From contig MHCB01000003.1 of the NCBI GenBank assembly GCA_001816455.1, forward strand, positions 1 through 38,936: a stretch of DNA of 38,936 nt, in the 5' to 3' direction. The stretch is from Candidatus Blackburnbacteria bacterium RIFCSPHIGHO2_12_FULL_44_25. GTDB taxonomy: Bacteria; Patescibacteriota; Microgenomatia; UBA8517; UBA10165. The notes beneath the pieces were generated by a model. That model was not told the DNA's origin and did not search any database. It saw only the letters and a program-made list of their open reading frames with translations. This document shows positions 1-26,255 of this stretch, piece after piece. Numbering within the stretch: the stretch's first letter is position 1; every line of letters begins with the position of its first letter. A program made the translations under genes and the position numbers.

Positions 1-3000
1 GCCAACACTCTCCTTATCCAAAACCTTTCTCTATCCTCCCCACTAGTTGCTTCTCAAGTTTGGAACCAAGCAGAAAAAGCTTCCCAAGAAGTTTTGGATG
101 CAGCAGCTGATGTCCAAGGGGAGCCCCCAATACCGCAGGATTTATCTGTAAGTATTCAAAAGCTAAAAGAACAAGGTTTAATAACTCCGGAAGAAAGCGA
201 TAAAATCTATGGGCTTGGTACAAGAGCCGGCGTCAGAAGTGAACTTGATAAATTCACCGCTTCTGGCCAGTTTCCAGCAACCGAGCTGGCCAAACTTGAC
301 CAAGCAGTTGCTACAAACTACCCCGAAACATACAAACAAACAAGCACAATCCTTCAGTTTGCTGAAATCAGGATGTACGAAACATATCCGCAGCCAACCG
401 AAGAGTTACAAGAACAAATAAAAGCCTGGCAAGACCTGCCTGGCGATTCCCCACCACCCACCGAAATCCGCCCGTACTTATATCACACAAGAGCTCAAGA
501 ATTAGCAACCAAAATAGACTTTACTAGCTTCCCGTCAGAACAACAAACAGAAGTGGCAAGATTTTACCCACAAGCTGTAGCAGAAAATTCAACATTTACA
601 AGCCAACTTCAACAAGAGCCTACACCAACTCCAAGTCCACTACCAACTCCCTCATCAGAAGGAACGAGCGAAACCACACCAACTCCAAGTCCACTACCAA
701 CTCCCCCTCCACCAGAAGTTTCACCATACCTAACAGAGTACAACGGTCCGCTTCCCGGAGACCCAACCTACTTAGGAAAACTGCTCAGTGAAGGAGTAAG
801 TACTTTTTTTGCTTTCGATCCAGTAAGACGCGTGGAGCTTAAAATGCAATACGCCGACGAACGACTAAGAGAGGCAAATGCCCTAAGTAAAGATACAAAA
901 AAGGCAAACCTATACGAACAAACCCTTAAAAAATACCAGCAAACAATAGATTCAGTCTCCAATAGTATAAAAACCTCCTCATCAATCCCAGAAGACAGAA
1001 GACTTGAATTGGCGGAAAAATTAGAATCAGAAGCAGCTCGTCACGGCGTGGTTTTTGAAAAAGGCTTACTTCCCCCGGCAACCAACGACACCACCATCTT
1101 AAGCGATATGATACTAACTGCTCAAAATGCAACGGACATCGCAGCTGATGTTCAAGGTAGACTTCCACTTCCAGCAATACTAGCCAACCGCTTACAAGAT
1201 ATGAAAGCCCAAGGCCTTATTCTTCCCGAAGAAGTAGAGCAACTAACCCAAGCAAAAACAAGAGAAGAGGTAAGAGAAAGAATACGAAAACTTACAGAAA
1301 TTGGTGCTTTTCCGCCAGCAGACGCCAAAAAATTAGACGAAGCCCAACTATTAAATGCTCCTGGTGACTATAACCAATTGACAGAGGTTAGAAAAATAGA
1401 GGAGCTGCAAAACCTAAGATCAGTCCAAACTGATTTGGCCCAAACTCCCACCCTTAAAAATAACGCTGATGTTTTAAGTCAAAGAGAAAAAAGCTTGACT
1501 CAGAGTATTGATACCTCGTTAATTAAACCTGAAGATTTAACAGGCAGAGAAGATTTGAAGGGGGTTTTTGATAAACTGGCGGCCAGTGGTTCGGCCCGGC
1601 CAATTAACAGAGGTCAATTTGGAGCTCAACCGCCGTCGCCTACAGATGCTGTTTTAGCCACCTGTCCTGTGGGTGCTACATTTAAAACAAATGAAGGTTG
1701 TGTTTGGGCTGATTCGGGTAACAAAATTAATGATTATGACCAATATAAATGTTCCAGTGCGGGGCAGTACTATTCTTTTGCAGCTAAAAAGTGTGTGCCA
1801 AATCAACGTGGTGGGGGTTTTGGAGATGATGCTTCTCCTGTTTGTCCGGCAGGTTATAATTGGGTATGGCAGAGCCAAAGTTGTCAAATCTCTGACAACG
1901 AAGTAACCCCTTTACCTACTCCGGGTCCGGGGGATTCAGAGTCTTGTCCTCAAGAATCATCCTACCAAGCGCCAAATGGTTGTGTATGGGATAATAATGG
2001 CAAAAAAGTTACTGATTCCACAGATTACAAATGCGAGCGCAATCAGTACTATTCTTTTAGTCAGTTCAAATGTGTTCTCTATCCCACGGACGGATTTATT
2101 TCTCCCGACGACTTCGTGCCTTCTTGTAAAGATCCTAATGCTTATTGGAGTTGGTCGGATGGTAAATGTACTATGCCCAGACCCATTGAGGGGGGTATTA
2201 AGGAAATAAATATTCCGCAACCTACTTTTGTCCCCCCCGGCAATCCACTCTATTTTGTTAAACAGTGGGGTGAGGGTTTGCAAAAAACATTTGCTTTTAC
2301 TCCTCAAGCCAGAGAGCAAGTTAGTTTATCTCAAGCCAAGGAAAGACTGGCTGAAGCAGCCTATGCTTTGAAAAAAGATGATAAAGCAGGAGTAAAAGCT
2401 GCCATTACTTCTTATATTTCGATGATGCAAAGCATAGTGGCTGATGTACCTCGGGAGGGTCTTTCCGAGGGGGCCAAGCAGGAGATTGCCAAACGCTTAA
2501 GTGATGGATCGGTTGAGCAAAACCTGATGTTGCAGAAGCTGTCGGCTTGGGCCAAAGAAGAAGATGATGATTTGATTCAAGCTGCTATTTCTATGCCGGT
2601 TTTAGGTGTTGACAGGGCGTCTGATGTTTTGGGTGAGCCGGTTATTCCTGATGATGTTAGGGCCAAAATTGAGGCCTTGCCGGCAGAGATGATTTCCGAG
2701 GAGAATAAGAAAAAACTGCTGGAAGCAGATTCCCGGGTGGCAGTCAGGGCAGAATTGACTAATCTTTCAAATGTTGGAGGTTTGGGAAGAGATGATGTGG
2801 TATTTTTGAATGATGATTTTGATAAAGTTGACAGCGGAGCTCAAATTGAGCTGGAAGAACTTTCCAAACTGGCAGAAATTGCCGACATTACCAATCAGAA
2901 GGATGATATTAATCAAAAGGTAGAAAAAAATGAGGATATTGTTACAAAACTGGGCGAGTTCCAAAAAAACTTTGAGCCGGGTCAAGAAATTCCCGCGGAA

Positions 3001-4644
3001 ATCCGCCCTTATGTGAGATTAACCAGGATTGATGAAATAACTCAAACTATCCGTCCCGATATTGTGAGACTGGAAGATTTCCAGAATCGCAAAGACGTAC
3101 AGCTTGCCGTGGCGACACTTCAGGAAGAATTCAGACCTACCAGTCAATCTATCCAGCAGGTGCGAGATTTTAAAAGAAGAAATCCTAATGCCGCCCTGCC
3201 TTTTGATCTGGCCAGGATTGAAGCGTTATCATTTAGTTTGGGTGTAAGACAAGAAGCAGGAGCATGTTATCTGCCTACTCCGCCTTTCCCAGCTAATACT
3301 CCTTGTCCTGCTCCGGGTGCGTCCATACCAATCGCCTCATACTATGGTGGTTATTCCAATGGGCCTGCTAATTTTACCTCGCCCACTCCCGCTGTTGATA
3401 AAGACGGAAAACCATATACCTATGGTCAGGGACCACAAGCCCAAAGTGCCGGGGTTTGCCCTGACGGCTATCATTGGATGTACGACAGCGGTGGTTGGTG
3501 TATGAGCAATGGTGGAAATTATAGTCCATCTTATAACTATACCCCAACAGGTACAGGTTCTGGTTATACTCCTTACAGCCCTTATTATACTGCTCCGGGA
3601 GCTCCTCCTGCTACTTACGGTTATCCCACAGGAGGTAATTATTCTTCGTCTCCTTACTCATATGGCGCGCCCAGTTATTATGGTCCGGCTCCTACCAATT
3701 ACACTACTAATCCGCCATCAGGCACTGTACCGGGTTCAGGGCCCGCGCCTATCTCTCCGGGTCAATGTCCATCCGGTTTCCACTGGATGTCTGACTCCGG
3801 CGGTTGGTGTATGTCAAATGGTAATACTTATGTGCCAAGCGGGACTTCTGGTGGCATTCCTTATTCTCCCAACTTAACTCAATCAAGCTGTGGCCCCGGG
3901 TACTATTGGGACGGCCAGGGTTGCATCCGCACAAGTCCTACCGATACTCCCAGCTCATACCAGTACGGCTGCACTCCAGGTTACTATTGGGATAACGGTA
4001 AGTGCGTTGCAGGCAACTATGAGGGTGGAAATTGGTCAGATACCGCTGCCCGCTCCAGAAGCTATTGCCAACCCCCTTCGGGCGGTTGTGGATATAGTTC
4101 TTACTGGGATTATGGTAGTTGTTCTTGCAGAGGTGCTAGTACTTACAGCGGGGGCAGCACCACAACCCCAGGTTCCTATTCCTCAGGGTATAATACTTCC
4201 ACTGGCTCCTGCACTCAACAAACCTGTAGAAGTAGTGAATGGTTTGATTGGGGAACATGCTCCTGCAGGCCCACCGGCAATACCTATACACCCGTTCCCG
4301 GAACAACTGGCACCTCTGGGTCATCTTCAGGGTCATGTCCTTCTGGATCTCACTGGATGAGTGATAACGGAGGATATTGCATGTCAGATGGCGGTGGCAG
4401 CTCCTCGTCAAGCACCTCAGGCGGCTCCTGTCCTTCAGGCTACCATTGGATGTCAGATTCGGGGGGCTGGTGTATGTCAGATGGCGGAGGGGGAAGCACT
4501 TCCACCTACACACCACCAAGCTCTACAAGTACTCCATCCTCGCCTGCTCCATCCTCTGAACCCGCACCAACAACTGCTCCATCCTCTGAACCCGCACCAA
4601 CAACTGCTCCATCCTCTGAACCTGCACCAACAACTGCTCCATGA
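1..4644 (+). CDS. Giant modular cysteine-rich secreted surface protein (5' end outside window)
   Basis: The frame is open from base 1, so the true start lies upstream; a TTG at 94 is only the first possible start inside the window. The visible protein is about 1,547 residues. It is modular: a roughly 80-residue module with the core [AS]DV[LQ]G occurs three times (near 79-310, 1126-1350 and 2593-2830). A segment with EIRPY occurs twice (near 460-600 and 2990-3130). Two segments (near 718-1020 and 2230-2450) match my knowledge of DUF5667 (PGDPTYLGK..., PGNPLYFVK...). Cysteine-rich blocks follow, including four copies of a motif like CPSGFHWMSDSGGWCMSNG (starting near 3457, 3766, 4336 and 4429). 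A Pro/Ser/Thr tail ends the protein, with no C-terminal membrane anchor or LPXTG. I infer a secreted adhesin or envelope protein. Codon use changes abruptly inside the gene (see findings). The stop overlaps the next start (ATGA). Confidence 0.85.
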   Translation, partial: ANTLLIQNLSLSSPLVASQVWNQAEKASQEVLDAAADVQGEPPIPQDLSVSIQKLKEQGLITPEESDKIYGLGTRAGVRSELDKFTASGQFPATELAKLDQAVATNYPETYKQTSTILQFAEIRMYETYPQPTEELQEQIKAWQDLPGDSPPPTEIRPYLYHTRAQELATKIDFTSFPSEQQTEVARFYPQAVAENSTFTSQLQQEPTPTPSPLPTPSSEGTSETTPTPSPLPTPPPPEVSPYLTEYNGPLPGDPTYLGKLLSEGVSTFFAFDPVRRVELKMQYADERLREANALSKDTKKANLYEQTLKKYQQTIDSVSNSIKTSSSIPEDRRLELAEKLESEAARHGVVFEKGLLPPATNDTTILSDMILTAQNATDIAADVQGRLPLPAILANRLQDMKAQGLILPEEVEQLTQAKTREEVRERIRKLTEIGAFPPADAKKLDEAQLLNAPGDYNQLTEVRKIEELQNLRSVQTDLAQTPTLKNNADVLSQREKSLTQSIDTSLIKPEDLTGREDLKGVFDKLAASGSARPINRGQFGAQPPSPTDAVLATCPVGATFKTNEGCVWADSGNKINDYDQYKCSSAGQYYSFAAKKCVPNQRGGGFGDDASPVCPAGYNWVWQSQSCQISDNEVTPLPTPGPGDSESCPQESSYQAPNGCVWDNNGKKVTDSTDYKCERNQYYSFSQFKCVLYPTDGFISPDDFVPSCKDPNAYWSWSDGKCTMPRPIEGGIKEINIPQPTFVPPGNPLYFVKQWGEGLQKTFAFTPQAREQVSLSQAKERLAEAAYALKKDDKAGVKAAITSYISMMQSIVADVPREGLSEGAKQEIAKRLSDGSVEQNLMLQKLSAWAKEEDDDLIQAAISMPVLGVDRASDVLGEPVIPDDVRAKIEALPAEMISEENKKKLLEADSRVAVRAELTNLSNVGGLGRDDVVFLNDDFDKVDSGAQIELEELSKLAEIADITNQKDDINQKVEKNEDIVTKLGEFQKNFEPGQEIPAEIRPYVRLTRIDEITQTIRPDIVRLEDFQNRKDVQLAVATLQEEFRPTSQSIQQVRDFKRRNPNAALPFDLARIEALSFSLGVRQEAGACYLPTPPFPANTPCPAPGASIPIASYYGGYSNGPANFTSPTPAVDKDGKPYTYGQGPQAQSAGVCPDGYHWMYDSGGWCMSNGGNYSPSYNYTPTGTGSGYTPYSPYYTAPGAPPATYGYPTGGNYSSSPYSYGAPSYYGPAPTNYTTNPPSGTVPGSGPAPISPGQCPSGFHWMSDSGGWCMSNGNTYVPSGTSGGIPYSPNLTQSSCGPGYYWDGQGCIRTSPTDTPSSYQYGCTPGYYWDNGKCVAGNYEGGNWSDTAARSRSYCQPPSGGCGYSSYWDYGSCSCRGASTYSGGSTTTPGSYSSGYNTSTGSCTQQTCRSSEWFDWGTCSCRPTGNTYTPVPGTTGTSGSSSGSCPSGSHWMSDNGGYCMSDGGGSSSSSTSGGSCPSGYHWMSDSGGWCMSDGGGGSTSTYTPPSSTSTPSSPAPSSEPAPTTAPSSEPAPTTAPSSEPAPTTAP
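4545..4644 (+). repeat. 30-bp tandem repeat encoding the APSSEPAPTT tail
   Basis: Three consecutive 30-bp units start at 4545, 4575 and 4605, followed by a partial unit to 4642. Only one base differs between them (C to T near 4622). Each unit encodes ten residues rich in Pro, Ser, Thr and Glu, at the extreme C-terminus of the giant surface protein. The near identity implies recent expansion, and copy number probably varies between strains. Confidence 0.9.
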
Positions 4645-5021
4645 CCAGTGTAAAGAAAAAGAGGAAGGTTCTATTACAGATATGTGCAGTTTCCCTTTTA
4701 GTACTCGCCTTAGTACTCGCCAGTATACTTTTTCTAAAAACCCAAAAAACAAAACACGCCATCTCCTACGACGGAGAGGCGTTCGCCCCAGAATTTATAG
4801 TCATCCACCTCGGTGACTCGGTAAAGATCAAAAACAGCTCACAAAAGCCAGCAGAAATAGCAGTAGGAAGGCACGAGAACCATAAAACACTAAGCGGATT
4901 CCAAGAAAGAATTATCAAACCAAAAGAAGAATACGCATTCACCCCCCTGGAAAAAGGAGTGTTTGATCTCCACAACCACCTCAACCCCAAAAACCAAGGG
5001 TACCTCATCATCGACAAATAG
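4641..5021 (+). CDS. Membrane-anchored cupredoxin-like protein
   Basis: 126 aa. An N-terminal KKKRK cluster is followed by one hydrophobic segment (about residues 10-32), so the rest should lie outside the membrane. The outer part reads as a small beta-sandwich: EFIVIHLGDSVKIKNSS, then FTPLEKGVFDLHNHLNP, then GYLIID at the end. This layout resembles cupredoxin-like domains common in CPR genomes. In a type 1 copper site one expects a Cys between the ligand histidines; here the loop has HNH and no Cys, so copper binding, if any, is non-classical. The ATG overlaps the stop of the surface protein by 4 nt, so the two are probably translationally coupled. The fold assignment is from pattern only. 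Confidence 0.7.
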   Translation: MTSVKKKRKVLLQICAVSLLVLALVLASILFLKTQKTKHAISYDGEAFAPEFIVIHLGDSVKIKNSSQKPAEIAVGRHENHKTLSGFQERIIKPKEEYAFTPLEKGVFDLHNHLNPKNQGYLIIDK

Positions 5022-21973: not shown

Positions 21974-22762
21974 TCACGAAGAAAGCTTCAGACGACGCAC
22001 ATAAGGAGCCAAACCACCCCAACCTGAAACAAAATACTGCTGAACCCCCTGAAACAAGGAAAGGGCACCCCAAAACAAAACTATACTCAAAGGAAAACTC
22101 AAACCAACAACAAGTGTAATTAAGGGAAACATATAAATCATTTGCTTCTGCATCGACACCGCCATATCGTCAGACACTTCCGTTGTCGCTTTAGCAACCT
22201 TCTCAAGTTTCTTTACCTCAGGTAGCATCATTTTTGATGAAAGAAACTGCAACAATGCAACAAAAACTAAAAACAAACCAGGCAAGGGAAAAGGAACCAC
22301 AGAAACAGCAATAACATCAGGACGGGTTAAATCCTGTCCCAAGAAGTACTTGTTAACTTCGCCAGAAATTCTAAGAGAAGGGTACAAAATTTGGTTCAAG
22401 CTCGCCGTCACGTCACTTGTCCTAAAAACCGTAGAAAATCCGTTAAACAAAGCAATAAGTATCACAAAGTTTATTATTTGAGGTAAACACCCAGAGGCAG
22501 GATTAATACCCTTTTCCTTATAAAAATCCGTCTGGGCCTGCAACTGCTTCTGCTTGTCGTCCTTATATTTTTTCTTAATCCGCTCAAGTTCCGGATTGTG
22601 ATCCTTTATCTTCTGCATCATCTTCATTGAGGGGAGAGTCAGAGGGGTAAGTACAAGTTTCATAAACACAGTAAAGGCAATAATCGCCAAACCCAAATTG
22701 GAGAACAAGAGGTGGTAAAAAACAATTATTAAGTTAAGTAGTGGTTGATAAATTATTTGCAT
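21974..22762 (-). CDS. yidC: YidC/Oxa1-type membrane protein insertase
   Basis: 262 aa, the short form without the large periplasmic domain found in proteobacteria. The core has five membrane helices: residues about 5-24, 28-45, 103-125, 155-175 and 210-235. Typical motifs are GLAIIAFTVFMKLVLTPLTL with the basic groove region, a charged cytoplasmic hairpin (KIKDHNPELERIKKKYKDDK), and NPASGCLPQIINFVILIALF. It inserts proteins into the cytoplasmic membrane with or without SecYEG. It lies 4 bp from yidD. Confidence 0.95.
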   Translation of the reverse strand: MQIIYQPLLNLIIVFYHLLFSNLGLAIIAFTVFMKLVLTPLTLPSMKMMQKIKDHNPELERIKKKYKDDKQKQLQAQTDFYKEKGINPASGCLPQIINFVILIALFNGFSTVFRTSDVTASLNQILYPSLRISGEVNKYFLGQDLTRPDVIAVSVVPFPLPGLFLVFVALLQFLSSKMMLPEVKKLEKVAKATTEVSDDMAVSMQKQMIYMFPLITLVVGLSFPLSIVLFWGALSLFQGVQQYFVSGWGGLAPYVRRLKLSS

Positions 22763-22766
22763 GAGT

Positions 22767-22973
22767 CTACCAAGGATTACATTTTAATATACGCTTACCC
22801 CCAAAAAGCAACCCGCGCAACACGCCCTCCTTCTTTATCTTCTCAATTGTGTACTCGGAACAACTCGGGTTTTGCGGACAACCCTGCCCGCCGGCAAGAG
22901 AAAGAAAACCCCCAGGCGAAGAGAAAAAAAATTGATAAAACTCAACCAATTTAATAACTATGAATCTAAGCAT
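22767..22973 (-). CDS. yidD: YidD membrane insertion efficiency factor
   Basis: 68 aa. The family pattern is clear: KLVEFYQFFFSSP at the start, CPQNPSCSEYTIEKIKKEG in the middle and GGKRILKCNPW at the end, with three Cys. YidD is a small amphipathic protein that helps YidC/Sec insertion. The segment SLAGGQG just before the first Cys comes from a GC-rich element related to the one in valS. It is close to rnpA (5 bp) and yidC (4 bp), the classical order. Confidence 0.93.
   Translation of the reverse strand: MLRFIVIKLVEFYQFFFSSPGGFLSLAGGQGCPQNPSCSEYTIEKIKKEGVLRGLLFGGKRILKCNPW
22882..22900 (-). repeat. Embedded GC-rich element in yidD (encodes LAGGQG)
   Basis: In the coding direction this reads CTCTTGCCGGCGGGCAGGG and is followed by TTGT (Cys). 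It aligns with the valS element at 15119-15141 (CTTGCC, four extra bases, GGC, RRR, CAGG, RTTGT). Both encode Leu-(Pro)-Ala-Gly-x-Gln-x-Cys before a Cys-containing motif. Confidence 0.55.
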
Positions 22974-22978
22974 AGCGT

Positions 22979-23308
22979 CTAGAAAGAAACCTTTCCAAAG
23001 ATATTTTCCAAATCAGTCAGCATCTCCCCCTTAGTTTTACCCAAAACAGAAGATTTAGCTACCACCACCATTCGCAGCGGATAAGGGAGAGTTGGTAGCC
23101 TACTCCTGAAAAACTCCCTCACAACTCTTTTTATCCGGTTCCGCTCTGTAGCTTTTTTAGAAATCTTATTAGAAACAACCAAACCCAACTGTGATGTCTC
23201 CGACAAAAGCCAAGAAAGCCGAAACAAATCACCTTGTATCTGTTTCCCAACTTTGAAGAGTAACTTAAAATCAGAGTCACGAACCAGACGGTTTTGTCTC
23301 GGAAGCAT
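22979..23308 (-). CDS. rnpA: Ribonuclease P protein component
   Basis: 109 aa. It is the protein subunit that helps the RNase P RNA remove 5' leaders from tRNA precursors. Typical features: LPRQNRLVRDSDFKLLFKVG at the N-terminus, the strand LGLVVSNKISKKATERNRIK with the RNR motif, then RVVREFFRSRL, and MVVVAKSSVLGKTKGEM near the end. The start lies 3 bp after rpmH, so the two are cotranscribed. Confidence 0.95.
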   Translation of the reverse strand: MLPRQNRLVRDSDFKLLFKVGKQIQGDLFRLSWLLSETSQLGLVVSNKISKKATERNRIKRVVREFFRSRLPTLPYPLRMVVVAKSSVLGKTKGEMLTDLENIFGKVSF

Positions 23309-23311
23309 TGA

Positions 23312-23452
23312 TTATTTGAGTTGGCGCTTTCTCCCTTTCAAACTTCTACGCTTTAGGACTTTCTTTCCTGAAGCTGTTTTACCACGAGTACGATAACCCA
23401 CCTTACGTCGTCGGCGTGTTTTACTCGGCTGATATGTTCTCTTTGTCGACAC
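23312..23452 (-). CDS. rpmH: Ribosomal protein bL34
   Basis: 46 aa, starting at GTG 23452 and ending with TAA at 23312-23314. It begins [20 protein letters not shown], continues [20 protein letters not shown] and ends RKRQLK. This is the typical bL34 pattern (KRTYQPS..RR...GFR.R...GR.VL..RR.KGR), very rich in Lys and Arg. The start is set by homology and by a promoter 7 nt upstream. It heads the rpmH-rnpA-yidD-yidC-jag cluster and is divergent from dnaA, as in many bacteria. Confidence 0.95.
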
Positions 23453-23459
23453 ACTTCAG

Positions 23460-23488
23460 ATTCTACCGTTCTTTTCCGACATCTGCAA
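23460..23488 (-). promoter_or_regulatory. rpmH promoter TTGCAG-17-TAGAAT, leaderless
   Basis: Minus strand: -35 TTGCAG (23488-23483), 17-bp spacer, -10 TAGAAT (23465-23460), then 7 nt to the GTG at 23452. This is one of the clearest promoters in the window and gives a leaderless transcript starting with GTG. Confidence 0.6.
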
Positions 23489-23534
23489 CTTACACCCCAT
23501 GACTTCCAACCAACTGCTTCGGCTATTTTAAGGG

Positions 23535-23565
23535 TTGCTCAATTGTGGATAACTCCGTATATATT
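23535..23565 (+). promoter_or_regulatory. dnaA promoter with an internal DnaA box
   Basis: Possible -35 TTGCTC (23535-23540) and -10 TATATA/TATATT (23558-23565). A perfect DnaA box TGTGGATAA (23544-23552) lies between them. The ATG at 23572 follows 6-8 nt after the -10. DnaA bound here would block polymerase, the classical autorepression arrangement. Confidence 0.6.
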
Positions 23566-23571
23566 GGCAGT

Positions 23572-24942
23572 ATGGACACCAAAAGACTTTGGAAAGATGT
23601 TTTAGGGAATATAAAAATTTCGATCTCGGCTGCAAACTATCAAACATGGTTTTCTCAAACTTTCATAACCTCAATTAAAGAAGTTGGGGAAGGAAGACAA
23701 ATTATAGAAATTGGGTGCTCATCTGCCTTTATTGCAGACGGGATTGAAAAAAGATATGTAGGGCTCCTACAAGACACCTTAAATCAAATAACAGGCCTTA
23801 AAAATGACATCATTTTTGTCGTAAAACAAAACCCCCAAATCCAAGAAAAGCTAGATCAGCCGCTCTTCACACTAGAAAAAAAGGGTGGAGAAGAAATAGT
23901 CACTTCCGCATTAAAAAAAGGAAGAATAAGACAAGGTTTTACGTTTGACAACTTTGCAGTATCAGGAACAAACCAAATGGCGCATGCCGCGGCCGAGGCA
24001 GTTGCCAGAAACCCAGGCAACGCCTATAACCCACTCTTTCTCTACGGCGGGGTAGGGGTAGGAAAAACCCACCTTATGCTCGCAGTAGCCCAAAGAGTTT
24101 TAGAAAAAGACCCGGACGTTTCGGTTCTATATTGTATGGGAGAAGAGTTCACAACCGAAATAGTCGATGCGATAAGGAATAAAACCACTATACTCTTCAA
24201 AAACAGATACCGTCGCTTAAAACTCCTAATGGTAGACGACATCCAATTTATAGCCGGAAAGACCGCAGTCCAAGAGGAATTCTTCCATACCTTCAACACC
24301 CTCCAAAGAGAAGGCGGGCAAGTAATCCTAACCTCAGACAGACCTCCCAGTGAAATAGAAAGGCTCGAGGAACGCCTTAAAAGCCGATTTGAGGCTGGCT
24401 TAACCATAGACATTTCACCTCCAGATTTTGAACTACGTGCAGCAATTACTTTAATCAAAGCAAAGGAGCGGGGAATAGAGCTAGAAATGGACGTTGCACA
24501 AACAATAGCAGTGAACATTGACAGTCCACGCCGAATAGAAGGGTTCTTAACAAGACTCTTCACGGAAGCCAAGCTTGGTGAAAAAACAATAGATATAGAT
24601 CTTGTAACTAAACTTCTAGGCATCACAAACGGCGAAGCACGGGCATTCAAAAAACCCTTATCCGCCCAACAAGTGATCAACGCCGTCTCAGATTATTACT
24701 CTTTAGGGAAAAGGAGTCTTCTCGGGGCAAGTAGAACCCAAACAATAGCCTTGCCACGCCAAATCCTAATGTACATATTAAGAATCGACCTCGGCCTGCC
24801 TTTGCAAGAAGTAGGAAGGCTTGTCGGAGGAAGAGATCATACAACCGTAATGCACGCTGTGGAAAAGATATCTAAAAACTTAGGTCAAAACAGTGGATTA
24901 CAAGAAGATATTCTGGGGATTAAAAAAGGCATATCCCCATAA
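23572..24942 (+). CDS. dnaA: Chromosomal replication initiator DnaA
   Basis: 456 aa. Domain I is at residues 1-80 (LWKDVLGNIKISISAANYQTW), a short domain II linker follows, and the AAA+ domain III runs from about 120 to 335. It shows Walker A GGVGVGKT (159-166), Walker B LLMVDDIQFIAG, and the sensor/arginine-finger region LTSDRPPSEIERLEERLKSR. Domain IV (about 360-456) carries the DNA-binding signature GRDHTTVMHAVEKI. The ATG at 23572 is chosen over GTG 23545 because the latter lies in the DnaA box and would precede the promoter -10; the N-terminus also fits the family. Confidence 0.97.
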   Translation: MDTKRLWKDVLGNIKISISAANYQTWFSQTFITSIKEVGEGRQIIEIGCSSAFIADGIEKRYVGLLQDTLNQITGLKNDIIFVVKQNPQIQEKLDQPLFTLEKKGGEEIVTSALKKGRIRQGFTFDNFAVSGTNQMAHAAAEAVARNPGNAYNPLFLYGGVGVGKTHLMLAVAQRVLEKDPDVSVLYCMGEEFTTEIVDAIRNKTTILFKNRYRRLKLLMVDDIQFIAGKTAVQEEFFHTFNTLQREGGQVILTSDRPPSEIERLEERLKSRFEAGLTIDISPPDFELRAAITLIKAKERGIELEMDVAQTIAVNIDSPRRIEGFLTRLFTEAKLGEKTIDIDLVTKLLGITNGEARAFKKPLSAQQVINAVSDYYSLGKRSLLGASRTQTIALPRQILMYILRIDLGLPLQEVGRLVGGRDHTTVMHAVEKISKNLGQNSGLQEDILGIKKGISP

Positions 24943-25101
24943 AGAAAAATAGAAACGGTAGTTTTGCACAAACCCTCAACCAAAGTGGATAACTTATCAA
25001 CAAAAGAGTCAAACCTGTTATCCACCACTTTCTGGGTTTCTTTTACACATCCCCACACTCTCTACAACAACAACAATTTGGTATATAAGGAACCGAAAGT
25101 A
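24943..25101 (+). other. Candidate oriC: DnaA-box cluster between dnaA and dnaN
   Basis: Three DnaA-box-like nonamers lie within 43 bp: AGTGGATAA (24984-24992), TTATCAACA (24994-25002) and TTATCCACC (25018-25026), each one mismatch from TTATCCACA or its complement. A fourth, perfect box is in the dnaA promoter. The dnaA-dnaN gap is a usual origin site. A short AT-rich stretch with GGTATATAAGG (25079-25089) could be the unwinding element. The strand bias does not obviously switch here, which argues for caution. Confidence 0.5.
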
Positions 25102-25133
25102 TTGACTTCCCCCCCTGTTCCATGGTGTATTGT
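25102..25133 (+). promoter_or_regulatory. dnaN promoter, TTGACT -35
   Basis: TTGACT (25102-25107) is a good -35. At 17 bp spacing the -10 would be GTGTAT (25125-25130), leaving 6 nt to the ATG at 25137; TATTGT (25128-25133) is a better -10 sequence but at 20 bp. Either way the transcript begins at or near the start codon. Confidence 0.4.
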
Positions 25134-25136
25134 CCT

Positions 25137-26255
25137 ATGAAACTCTCTGTTCTCCAAGAAGACCTACTAAAAAGTGTTGCGCTCGCCTCCAAATTTACCT
25201 CCAGTAAAGCCCAACTCCCCATACTTGGAAACATACTCCTCCGAGCAAAGGAAGGAAAACTCCAATTAGCAGCAACCAATCTGGAAACCGGAATATCAAC
25301 TAAACTCCCTGCAAAAATTGAAAAGGAAGGAGAAATTACTGTCCCAGCAAAAATTATACTTGAACTCATAAGCCATTTCCGCCCCGGTCAAGTTTTATTA
25401 GAAGAAGAAAAGGGACAGCTAAAAGTTTCCTCTCAAAACGCCAAAGCCAGCGTTTCGGGGCTGTCTACTAAAGAATTTCCCAATGTCCCAAATAGTCTTA
25501 ATAAAAAGTCTTTTTCCTTAAAAAAAGAAACAATTTCAGTTTTGTCAAAAGAAGTTTGTTTTGCGGCAGCCTCAATGGATACAAGACCTGTTTTAAGCGG
25601 AGTATACATTAAAATTGGGAATAATCCCGTCGCCGTAGCAACAGACGGTTTTAGACTGTCTTACAAAGACTTAAAAAGCGAGAATAGTGTCGTTTTGAAG
25701 GACAAAGAAAGAACAAGTTTTCTTCTACCAGCAACAATTATCCAAGAGTTAGGAAAATCTCTAAATCCCCAAAGCGAAGACATTAATGTTGAATTAAACG
25801 ACAAAGAAGGTCAAATTATATTTGAATCCGAGGAAGCAGTTTTAACAGCAAGACTCATAGAGGGCCAGTTTCCAGATTATCAAAAAGTACTTCCGAAGGG
25901 GTGGTCCGTAAAAACAGAAATATCAAAAGACGAACTATTGCAAGGAGTCAAAGCAGCCAGTGTGTTTGCCAAAGAGGCAGGAAGTGTCATCAAACTAAGT
26001 TTCAAAAAAGACGGCCTAAGTATTTCAAGTGAAAGTAATCTTTATGGAAGCGAAGAAATATCAATAGATTCGCGTGTAGAAGGAGAAGAACTAACAATTG
26101 CTTTCAATTACAAATTCGTTCTAGATTTTCTAAACTCGATAACTGGAGACAGTGTTTTAATCCAAACTCAAAGCGCGACCTCACCAACACTTTTCCAAAA
26201 TACAAAAGACGACTCCTACAAACACATAATAATGCCCGTTCGCCTACAAAGTTAA
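25137..26255 (+). CDS. dnaN: DNA polymerase III beta sliding clamp
   Basis: 372 aa, normal length (about 365-380). It forms the ring that tethers DNA polymerase III to DNA. The N-terminus MKLSVLQEDLLKSVALASKF and LPILGNILLRAKEGKLQLAA are typical of clamp domain 1. FAAASMDTRPVLSGVYIKI is the standard domain 2 start, and the C-terminus ends IIMPVRLQS, like the family MPMRL ending. I prefer ATG 25137 to ATG 25122 because the latter overlaps the -10 region and adds residues absent in relatives. Confidence 0.96.
   Translation: MKLSVLQEDLLKSVALASKFTSSKAQLPILGNILLRAKEGKLQLAATNLETGISTKLPAKIEKEGEITVPAKIILELISHFRPGQVLLEEEKGQLKVSSQNAKASVSGLSTKEFPNVPNSLNKKSFSLKKETISVLSKEVCFAAASMDTRPVLSGVYIKIGNNPVAVATDGFRLSYKDLKSENSVVLKDKERTSFLLPATIIQELGKSLNPQSEDINVELNDKEGQIIFESEEAVLTARLIEGQFPDYQKVLPKGWSVKTEISKDELLQGVKAASVFAKEAGSVIKLSFKKDGLSISSESNLYGSEEISIDSRVEGEELTIAFNYKFVLDFLNSITGDSVLIQTQSATSPTLFQNTKDDSYKHIIMPVRLQS

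Follow-up and report, generated by a model that had tools for sequence, protein, structure and literature searches.

Mosaic genes formed by interspecies recombination are known from Campylobacter, in which introgressed alleles are mosaic (PMC3139442), and from the lipoprotein loci of Borrelia (PMC11389397). As described, such genes share with the one treated here the in-frame replacement of an inner segment, sharp steps in identity and conflict between segment trees. The exchanges covered there, however, occur between strains or close species, whereas the present gene involves different genera and orders and has saturated silent sites outside the exchanged tract. A further difference is that its putative import carries the signature of the opposite replication strand.

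Among groundwater Patescibacteria gene-level transfer is common, and most single-gene transfers detected in one study took place from one member of this group to another (PMC12455944), which is also the situation proposed below; that study scored whole genes and islands, however, and the term 'intragenic' is absent from its text. GC skew has been used to infer inverted genes (PMC6220195), although this use is disputed (PMC9098844). The likeness to our case lies in reading strand skew as a memory of a former gene orientation; the difference is that whole genes were considered there, while here the switch falls inside one gene and is backed by independent evidence of ancestry.

The window analysed, that is, the whole stretch of 38,936 bp, is one contig (C3) of the genome G000, a Microgenomates-type member of the Patescibacteria with 840,956 bp in 39 contigs and a completeness of 95.7%. 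Three further genomes of its own family carry the giant gene described here, namely G002 (Candidatus Blackburnbacteria RIFCSPHIGHO2_01_FULL_43_15b), G003 (Candidatus Blackburnbacteria RIFCSPLOWO2_01_FULL_40_20) and G005 (Microgenomates Gr01-1014_5). Family f5 belongs to another order of the same class and includes G097 (one contig, 99% complete), G387 (75% complete), G276, G282 and G357; DnaA of f5 genomes is 36–40% identical to that of G000, compared with 62–68% within the own family. We conclude with high confidence that the giant gene, which encodes a DUF5667 protein, is a mosaic created by homologous replacement between lineages, and that the replaced tract covers about 2.4 kb (about 1387–3835) in at least two blocks.

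Architecture of the giant gene

The open reading frame at 1–4644 of the plus strand encodes 1547 amino acids of a giant protein of the secreted or surface type, its 5' end being truncated by the start of the contig; full-length relatives have 1674–1901 amino acids and a hydrophobic, signal-like stretch at the N-terminus. The whole protein matches DUF5667 (PF18915) with 78 bits, where the curated cut-off is 27, and like other proteins of this family it has modules above the Pfam cut-off, one in the 5' part (751–1059, 55.5 bits) and one further downstream (2230–2448, 43.1 bits). The other matches in G000 differ in that they sit in open frames of 164–332 amino acids, and the form of 1500–1900 amino acids was found in this analysis only in some Microgenomatia genomes. 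In addition, the protein contains Cys-rich CPxGxxWxxxxGxC modules and a Ser/Thr/Pro-rich tail. It is predicted to be a surface or secreted protein, and as such it may gain from exchange. The PDB holds no sequence relative of it and NCBIfam gave no match above the cut-off, while an AlphaFold2 model of 352 amino acids, comprising DUF5667 and the helices that follow, is all-helical with modest confidence (mean pLDDT 68).

Several stretches can be distinguished along the frame, all on the plus strand. The 5' part (1–1386) has A/C-ending codons of the native lagging-strand type, and its silent sites are saturated with respect to the sampled relatives. A 5' junction zone (1387–1440) lies within NQLTEVRKIEELQNLRS, the best-conserved stretch of the 5' half, which spans about 1261–1440 and contains all 5' edges reported below. 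The middle tract starts with block A (1441–2880), a putative imported cassette with G/T-ending codons of the leading-strand type, which is delimited by 4-fold site identity, trees and codon scores; it contains Cys-rich modules and the second DUF5667/helical module, and is common to G000, G002, G097 and G387. Block B (2881–3834), which is near to G002 only, consists of a helical EIRPYVRLTRIDEITQTIRPD region and Gly/Tyr-rich repeats. A 3' junction zone (3835–3880) follows immediately 3' of a repeated CPSGFHWMSDSGGWCMSNG module and is marked by the edge of the ancestry model and by the end of the codon-type segment, and the 3' tail (3881–4644), made of Cys/Gly/Ser-rich repeats, has the native codon type again. 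The next gene (4641–5021, plus strand) is cupredoxin-like.

A codon and skew switch inside one frame

Up to about 1440 the raw GC skew of the giant gene ranges from about 0 to -0.44 and the AT skew from +0.16 to +0.39; between about 1441 and 3000 the GC skew reaches up to +0.35 with an AT skew near 0 or negative, and the skew is then mixed up to about 4560, from where the sequence is C-rich again. Among the window genes tested, those on the plus strand prefer A/C-ending and those on the minus strand G/T-ending codons, and these two sets served to train lagging- and leading-type tables, respectively, for an amino-acid-conditioned codon log-likelihood ratio (LLR). With amino-acid content held fixed in this way, the giant frame is of the lagging type at 1–1428 (LLR -122), of the leading type at 1429–3879 (+110) and of the lagging type at 3880–4644 (-27). 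When the protein was simulated 300 times with codons of the lagging type, the maximal segment scored at most 11. Chunks of 80 codons behaved uniformly in the control genes, as none of the 45 from 9 other plus-strand genes exceeded -5 and none of the 73 from 14 minus-strand genes fell below +7. Furthermore, the giant gene was alone among 12 long genes in having a segment of the wrong strand type that far exceeds what codon shuffling gives (130.6, compared with 61.7 for the 99.9% null), the next best gene having p=0.011.

Both raw skew and conditioned scores thus confirm the abrupt switch inside one frame that the initial annotation had noticed, and the skew is not uniform along the gene, although the change lies nearer to 1430–1440 than to the proposed position of about 1540. 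The same annotation called the effect strongest to about 2860 and mixed thereafter, which agrees with the finding that two blocks of different ancestry meet at about 2880. The tract itself has its 3' end at about 3835.

The dnaA area, classically the neighbourhood of the origin, lies elsewhere in the window (21974–26255, with rnpA–yidC on the minus strand and dnaA at 23545 and dnaN at 25122 on the plus strand). Here the skew of G000 is unchanged and the plus strand is C-rich on both sides, and in the syntenic region of G002 the sign of the GC skew flips near dnaA; the replication origin of G000 may have shifted away from dnaA.

Silent-site ancestry and junctions

Synteny between the window and contig C31 of G002 extends from the giant gene to the far end. 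Pooled over 20 other genes, G000 and G002 agree at 590 of 1868 4-fold sites (32%), and the flanks of the giant gene do not depart from this level (31% in the 5' part and 29% in the 3' tail), while the tract at 1441–3834 agrees at 204 of 314 sites (65%; Fisher p=7e-29 against the baseline). Since silent sites are saturated elsewhere, the shared ancestry of the middle is far more recent than that of the rest of the two genomes. The cupredoxin-like gene is syntenic in G002 and its silent sites are saturated, therefore the shared tract stops short of it. A two-state HMM on the codon alignment of the two genes, used to locate the ancestry edges, placed the main ones at 1387 and 3835 and left a brief interruption at 3340–3405.

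G002 has a similar codon switch at the same place of the alignment, with a centred segment of 123.5 (shuffle maximum 63) that corresponds to 1273–3829 in G000 coordinates. Within the tract, synonymous differences between the two copies run almost equally in both directions (88 vs 73), and amelioration therefore gives no order in which G000 and G002 came to hold it. G003 and G005 have neither G/T-ending codons in the middle nor silent-site conservation at 1441–3834.

Other parts of the G002 gene deserve mention in their own right. Its 5' part (L039 2340–4260) is of the same extreme A/C type as that of G000, other G002 genes being weakly skewed, and it may be foreign as well. In the tail, repeat modules of G002 and G005 (L039 and L040, equivalent to window 4225–4533) agree at 66–74% of 4-fold sites over a baseline of about 30% and share the string MSDAARDGSTSGGSTTTGGST, which indicates that the tail was exchanged too; overall, the tail modules look reshuffled between lineages.

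The 5' junction recurs near 1370–1440 in all four carriers of block A. The G097 gene resembles its family member G357 on the left side (131 of 164 informative sites) and G000 from 1369 on (165 of 237), and a comparison of G387 with G276 places the switch at 1429. Replacement occurred at the homologous position and the frame was kept, the other carriers included. The 3' edge adjoins, on its 5' side, the repeated CPSGxHWMSDSGGWC module. The flanks are about 54% identical in DNA.

Relatives of the middle tract in another order

A DNA search for the tract in 374 genomes of the class found it in G097, from another family and order, at 76% over its whole length, and in G387 of family f5 at 80%. The two blocks behave differently. 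For block A, 4-fold identity to G000 is 72% in G387, 68% in G002 and 60% in G097, and DNA identity is 86% in G387 and 78% in G097, both of which are themselves recombinant; for block B, 4-fold identity is 62% in G002, 46% in G097 and 35% in G387.

The trees of the segments disagree among themselves and do not follow the kinship of the genomes either. The block A tree joins G000, G002, G097 and G387 into a single clade (100/100) that is placed inside f5 (100/99), and forcing the own family (G000, G002, G003 and G005) together costs 277 lnL (p-AU 8e-5). The block B tree unites G000 with G002 (97/95) and G387 with G282 (98/94), while the tree of the 5' part excludes G000 and G002 from f5 (100/99). 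Monophyly of the own family is also rejected for the 5' part (p-AU 2.5e-6), because G003 groups there with f5 and G336. This means that the whole gene family is reticulate and that neither flank provides a clean vertical reference.

The 5' part of the G003 gene (L041 6587–11989) groups with f5 and G336, and not with its own family, at 100/100; judging by this placement, it is another cross-family exchange.

Alternative explanations

The alternative that fares best, although it is unlikely, is an assembly chimera, in which reads from two organisms would have been joined in the contig at conserved parts of the giant gene. The gene is repeat-rich and lies at the start of a contig from a metagenome-assembled genome, and a related contig, C40 of G387, looks mis-joined, with a jump in GC content to 0.60 and a TonB-receptor-like end. 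However, the switch of G002 at the same alignment place and the nearly identical 5' junction in G387 and in the single contig of G097 mean that several separately assembled genomes have this edge in common, which argues against misassembly. Moreover, the tract differs by 14–24% in DNA from every known copy, the closest sampled one being that of G387, and is therefore not a collapsed copy of any of them, and the frame is open throughout.

As for C40 of G387 itself (L138, 1–2000), the 3' end of its giant gene continues in frame into GC-rich (0.60) TonB-receptor-like sequence, which makes an assembly chimera probable at this end of the contig in a public genome.

Less probable still is the reading of the initial annotation, by which a paralogue elsewhere in G000, on the opposite replication strand, donated the middle by gene conversion. 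The leading-type codons of the middle and the repetition of DUF5667 modules within the protein would fit it, but G000, at 95.7% completeness, holds no such paralogue: searches of the genome by DNA, family and protein found no donor, the only other match being 72 residues at 32%. In addition, copies in other lineages match the tract in the corresponding region, and the similarity extends to silent sites. The broader claim that the protein is a recombinant chimera is borne out by junctions near 1387–1440 and 3835 that ancestry and codon use both support, and recombination stands as the origin of the middle, although it took the form of same-position replacement from other lineages in at least two blocks, not of one event.

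That nothing was transferred, and that the middle was inherited vertically and only experiences stronger selection on protein or codons in G000 and G002, is very improbable. The protein of the middle is indeed better conserved than that of the flanks, but a VirB4-like gene of the same genome pair has 87% amino acid identity and yet only 29% identity at 4-fold sites, so strong protein conservation cannot produce the silent identity of the tract, and this comparison rules out stronger purifying selection. The grouping of block A with another order against the own family and the lack of G/T-ending codons in the middle of G003 and G005 speak against it as well. The weakest alternative, which can be dismissed with near certainty, is that amino-acid composition or low-complexity repeats alone produce the skew: this is partly true for 3840–4560, where codons end in T/C up to about 4560 partly because Gly/Tyr/Ser/Asn-rich repeats favour NNY codons, but the conditioned codon scores (+110 for 1429–3879) exclude it as the cause of the skew at 1429–3834.

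Carriage by phage was considered separately and rejected, as IMG/VR contains no relative.

Strand of the donor copy

In f5 the giant gene usually lies beside rplJ–rplL, as judged from translated neighbours. Two f5 genomes, G276 and G282, have it inverted relative to rplJ–rplL (L099 3485–8509 and L101 5135–10453), in a leading context and with G/T-type codons. These inversions are a natural test of how codons respond to the strand: the LLR per 50 codons for the 5' part and the tract is +9.1 and +5.8 in G282 and +6.7 and +6.1 in G276, and about 0 in the lagging-context copies of G357, G332 and G161. In G387 the gene is encoded by the G-rich strand of the contig, and most genes of the row in which it stands are of the G/T type. 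Together, the copies of G276, G282 and G387 indicate that the family related to block A includes versions of this gene that are on the leading strand and of the G/T type. The G097 gene is now in the lagging orientation, yet it is of the G/T type in the shared block A.

The donor copy of the middle was therefore probably on the opposite, leading strand. The leading-strand copies of f5 agree with the earlier proposal that the donor was on the opposite replication strand, but the G097 copy is lagging and the closest copies are recombinant.

A possible route of exchange

Repeated homologous replacement by inter-lineage recombination is the most likely origin of the mosaic. A middle of about 2.4 kb was swapped in frame for the corresponding part of the copies of other Microgenomatia lineages. 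Block A probably comes from a lineage related to f5 in which the gene was leading-oriented, an orientation that would have made its third positions G/T-rich, and block B is shared with G002. The codons would be inherited from the donor and still be unadapted to their present position on the lagging strand.

RecA-dependent exchange usually needs an identity far above 54%. The simplest guess is that short conserved anchors and missing mismatch repair together allow exchange at the flank identity found here. The anchors could be the VRKxEELQ region on the 5' side and the repeated CPSGxHWMSDSGGWC module on the 3' side, and an apparent absence of MutS may have aided the process by relaxed mismatch checking: MutS was found in 11 of 14 control genomes and not in G000, where the missing 4% could hold it. 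Natural transformation is probably the route, with free DNA taken up via ComEC and then exchanged in a RecA-dependent manner. G000 encodes both ComEC and RecA, and ComEC-dependent natural competence has been shown in Saccharibacteria (PMC10633639).

A further, tentative reading, which we consider possible but doubtful, would make block A an intragenic cassette that circulates and prefers one 5' breakpoint. Independent lineages from two or more orders would then have exchanged the same piece of 1.4 kb at a conserved anchor, although the flanks are only about 54% identical in DNA. If true, this would suggest either a hot spot of recombination or an exchange process in reduced bacteria that tolerates extreme divergence.

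Implications

An imported gene segment can be recognised by its replication-strand skew, which also informs on the orientation of the donor copy, and a skew-based screening of genomes for chimeric genes could work without a known donor. More generally, the giant gene points to the exchange of gene segments between distant lineages of Patescibacteria, in which mostly whole-gene transfer has been reported, and the exchanged segment is part of a giant secreted protein with possible contact to other cells.
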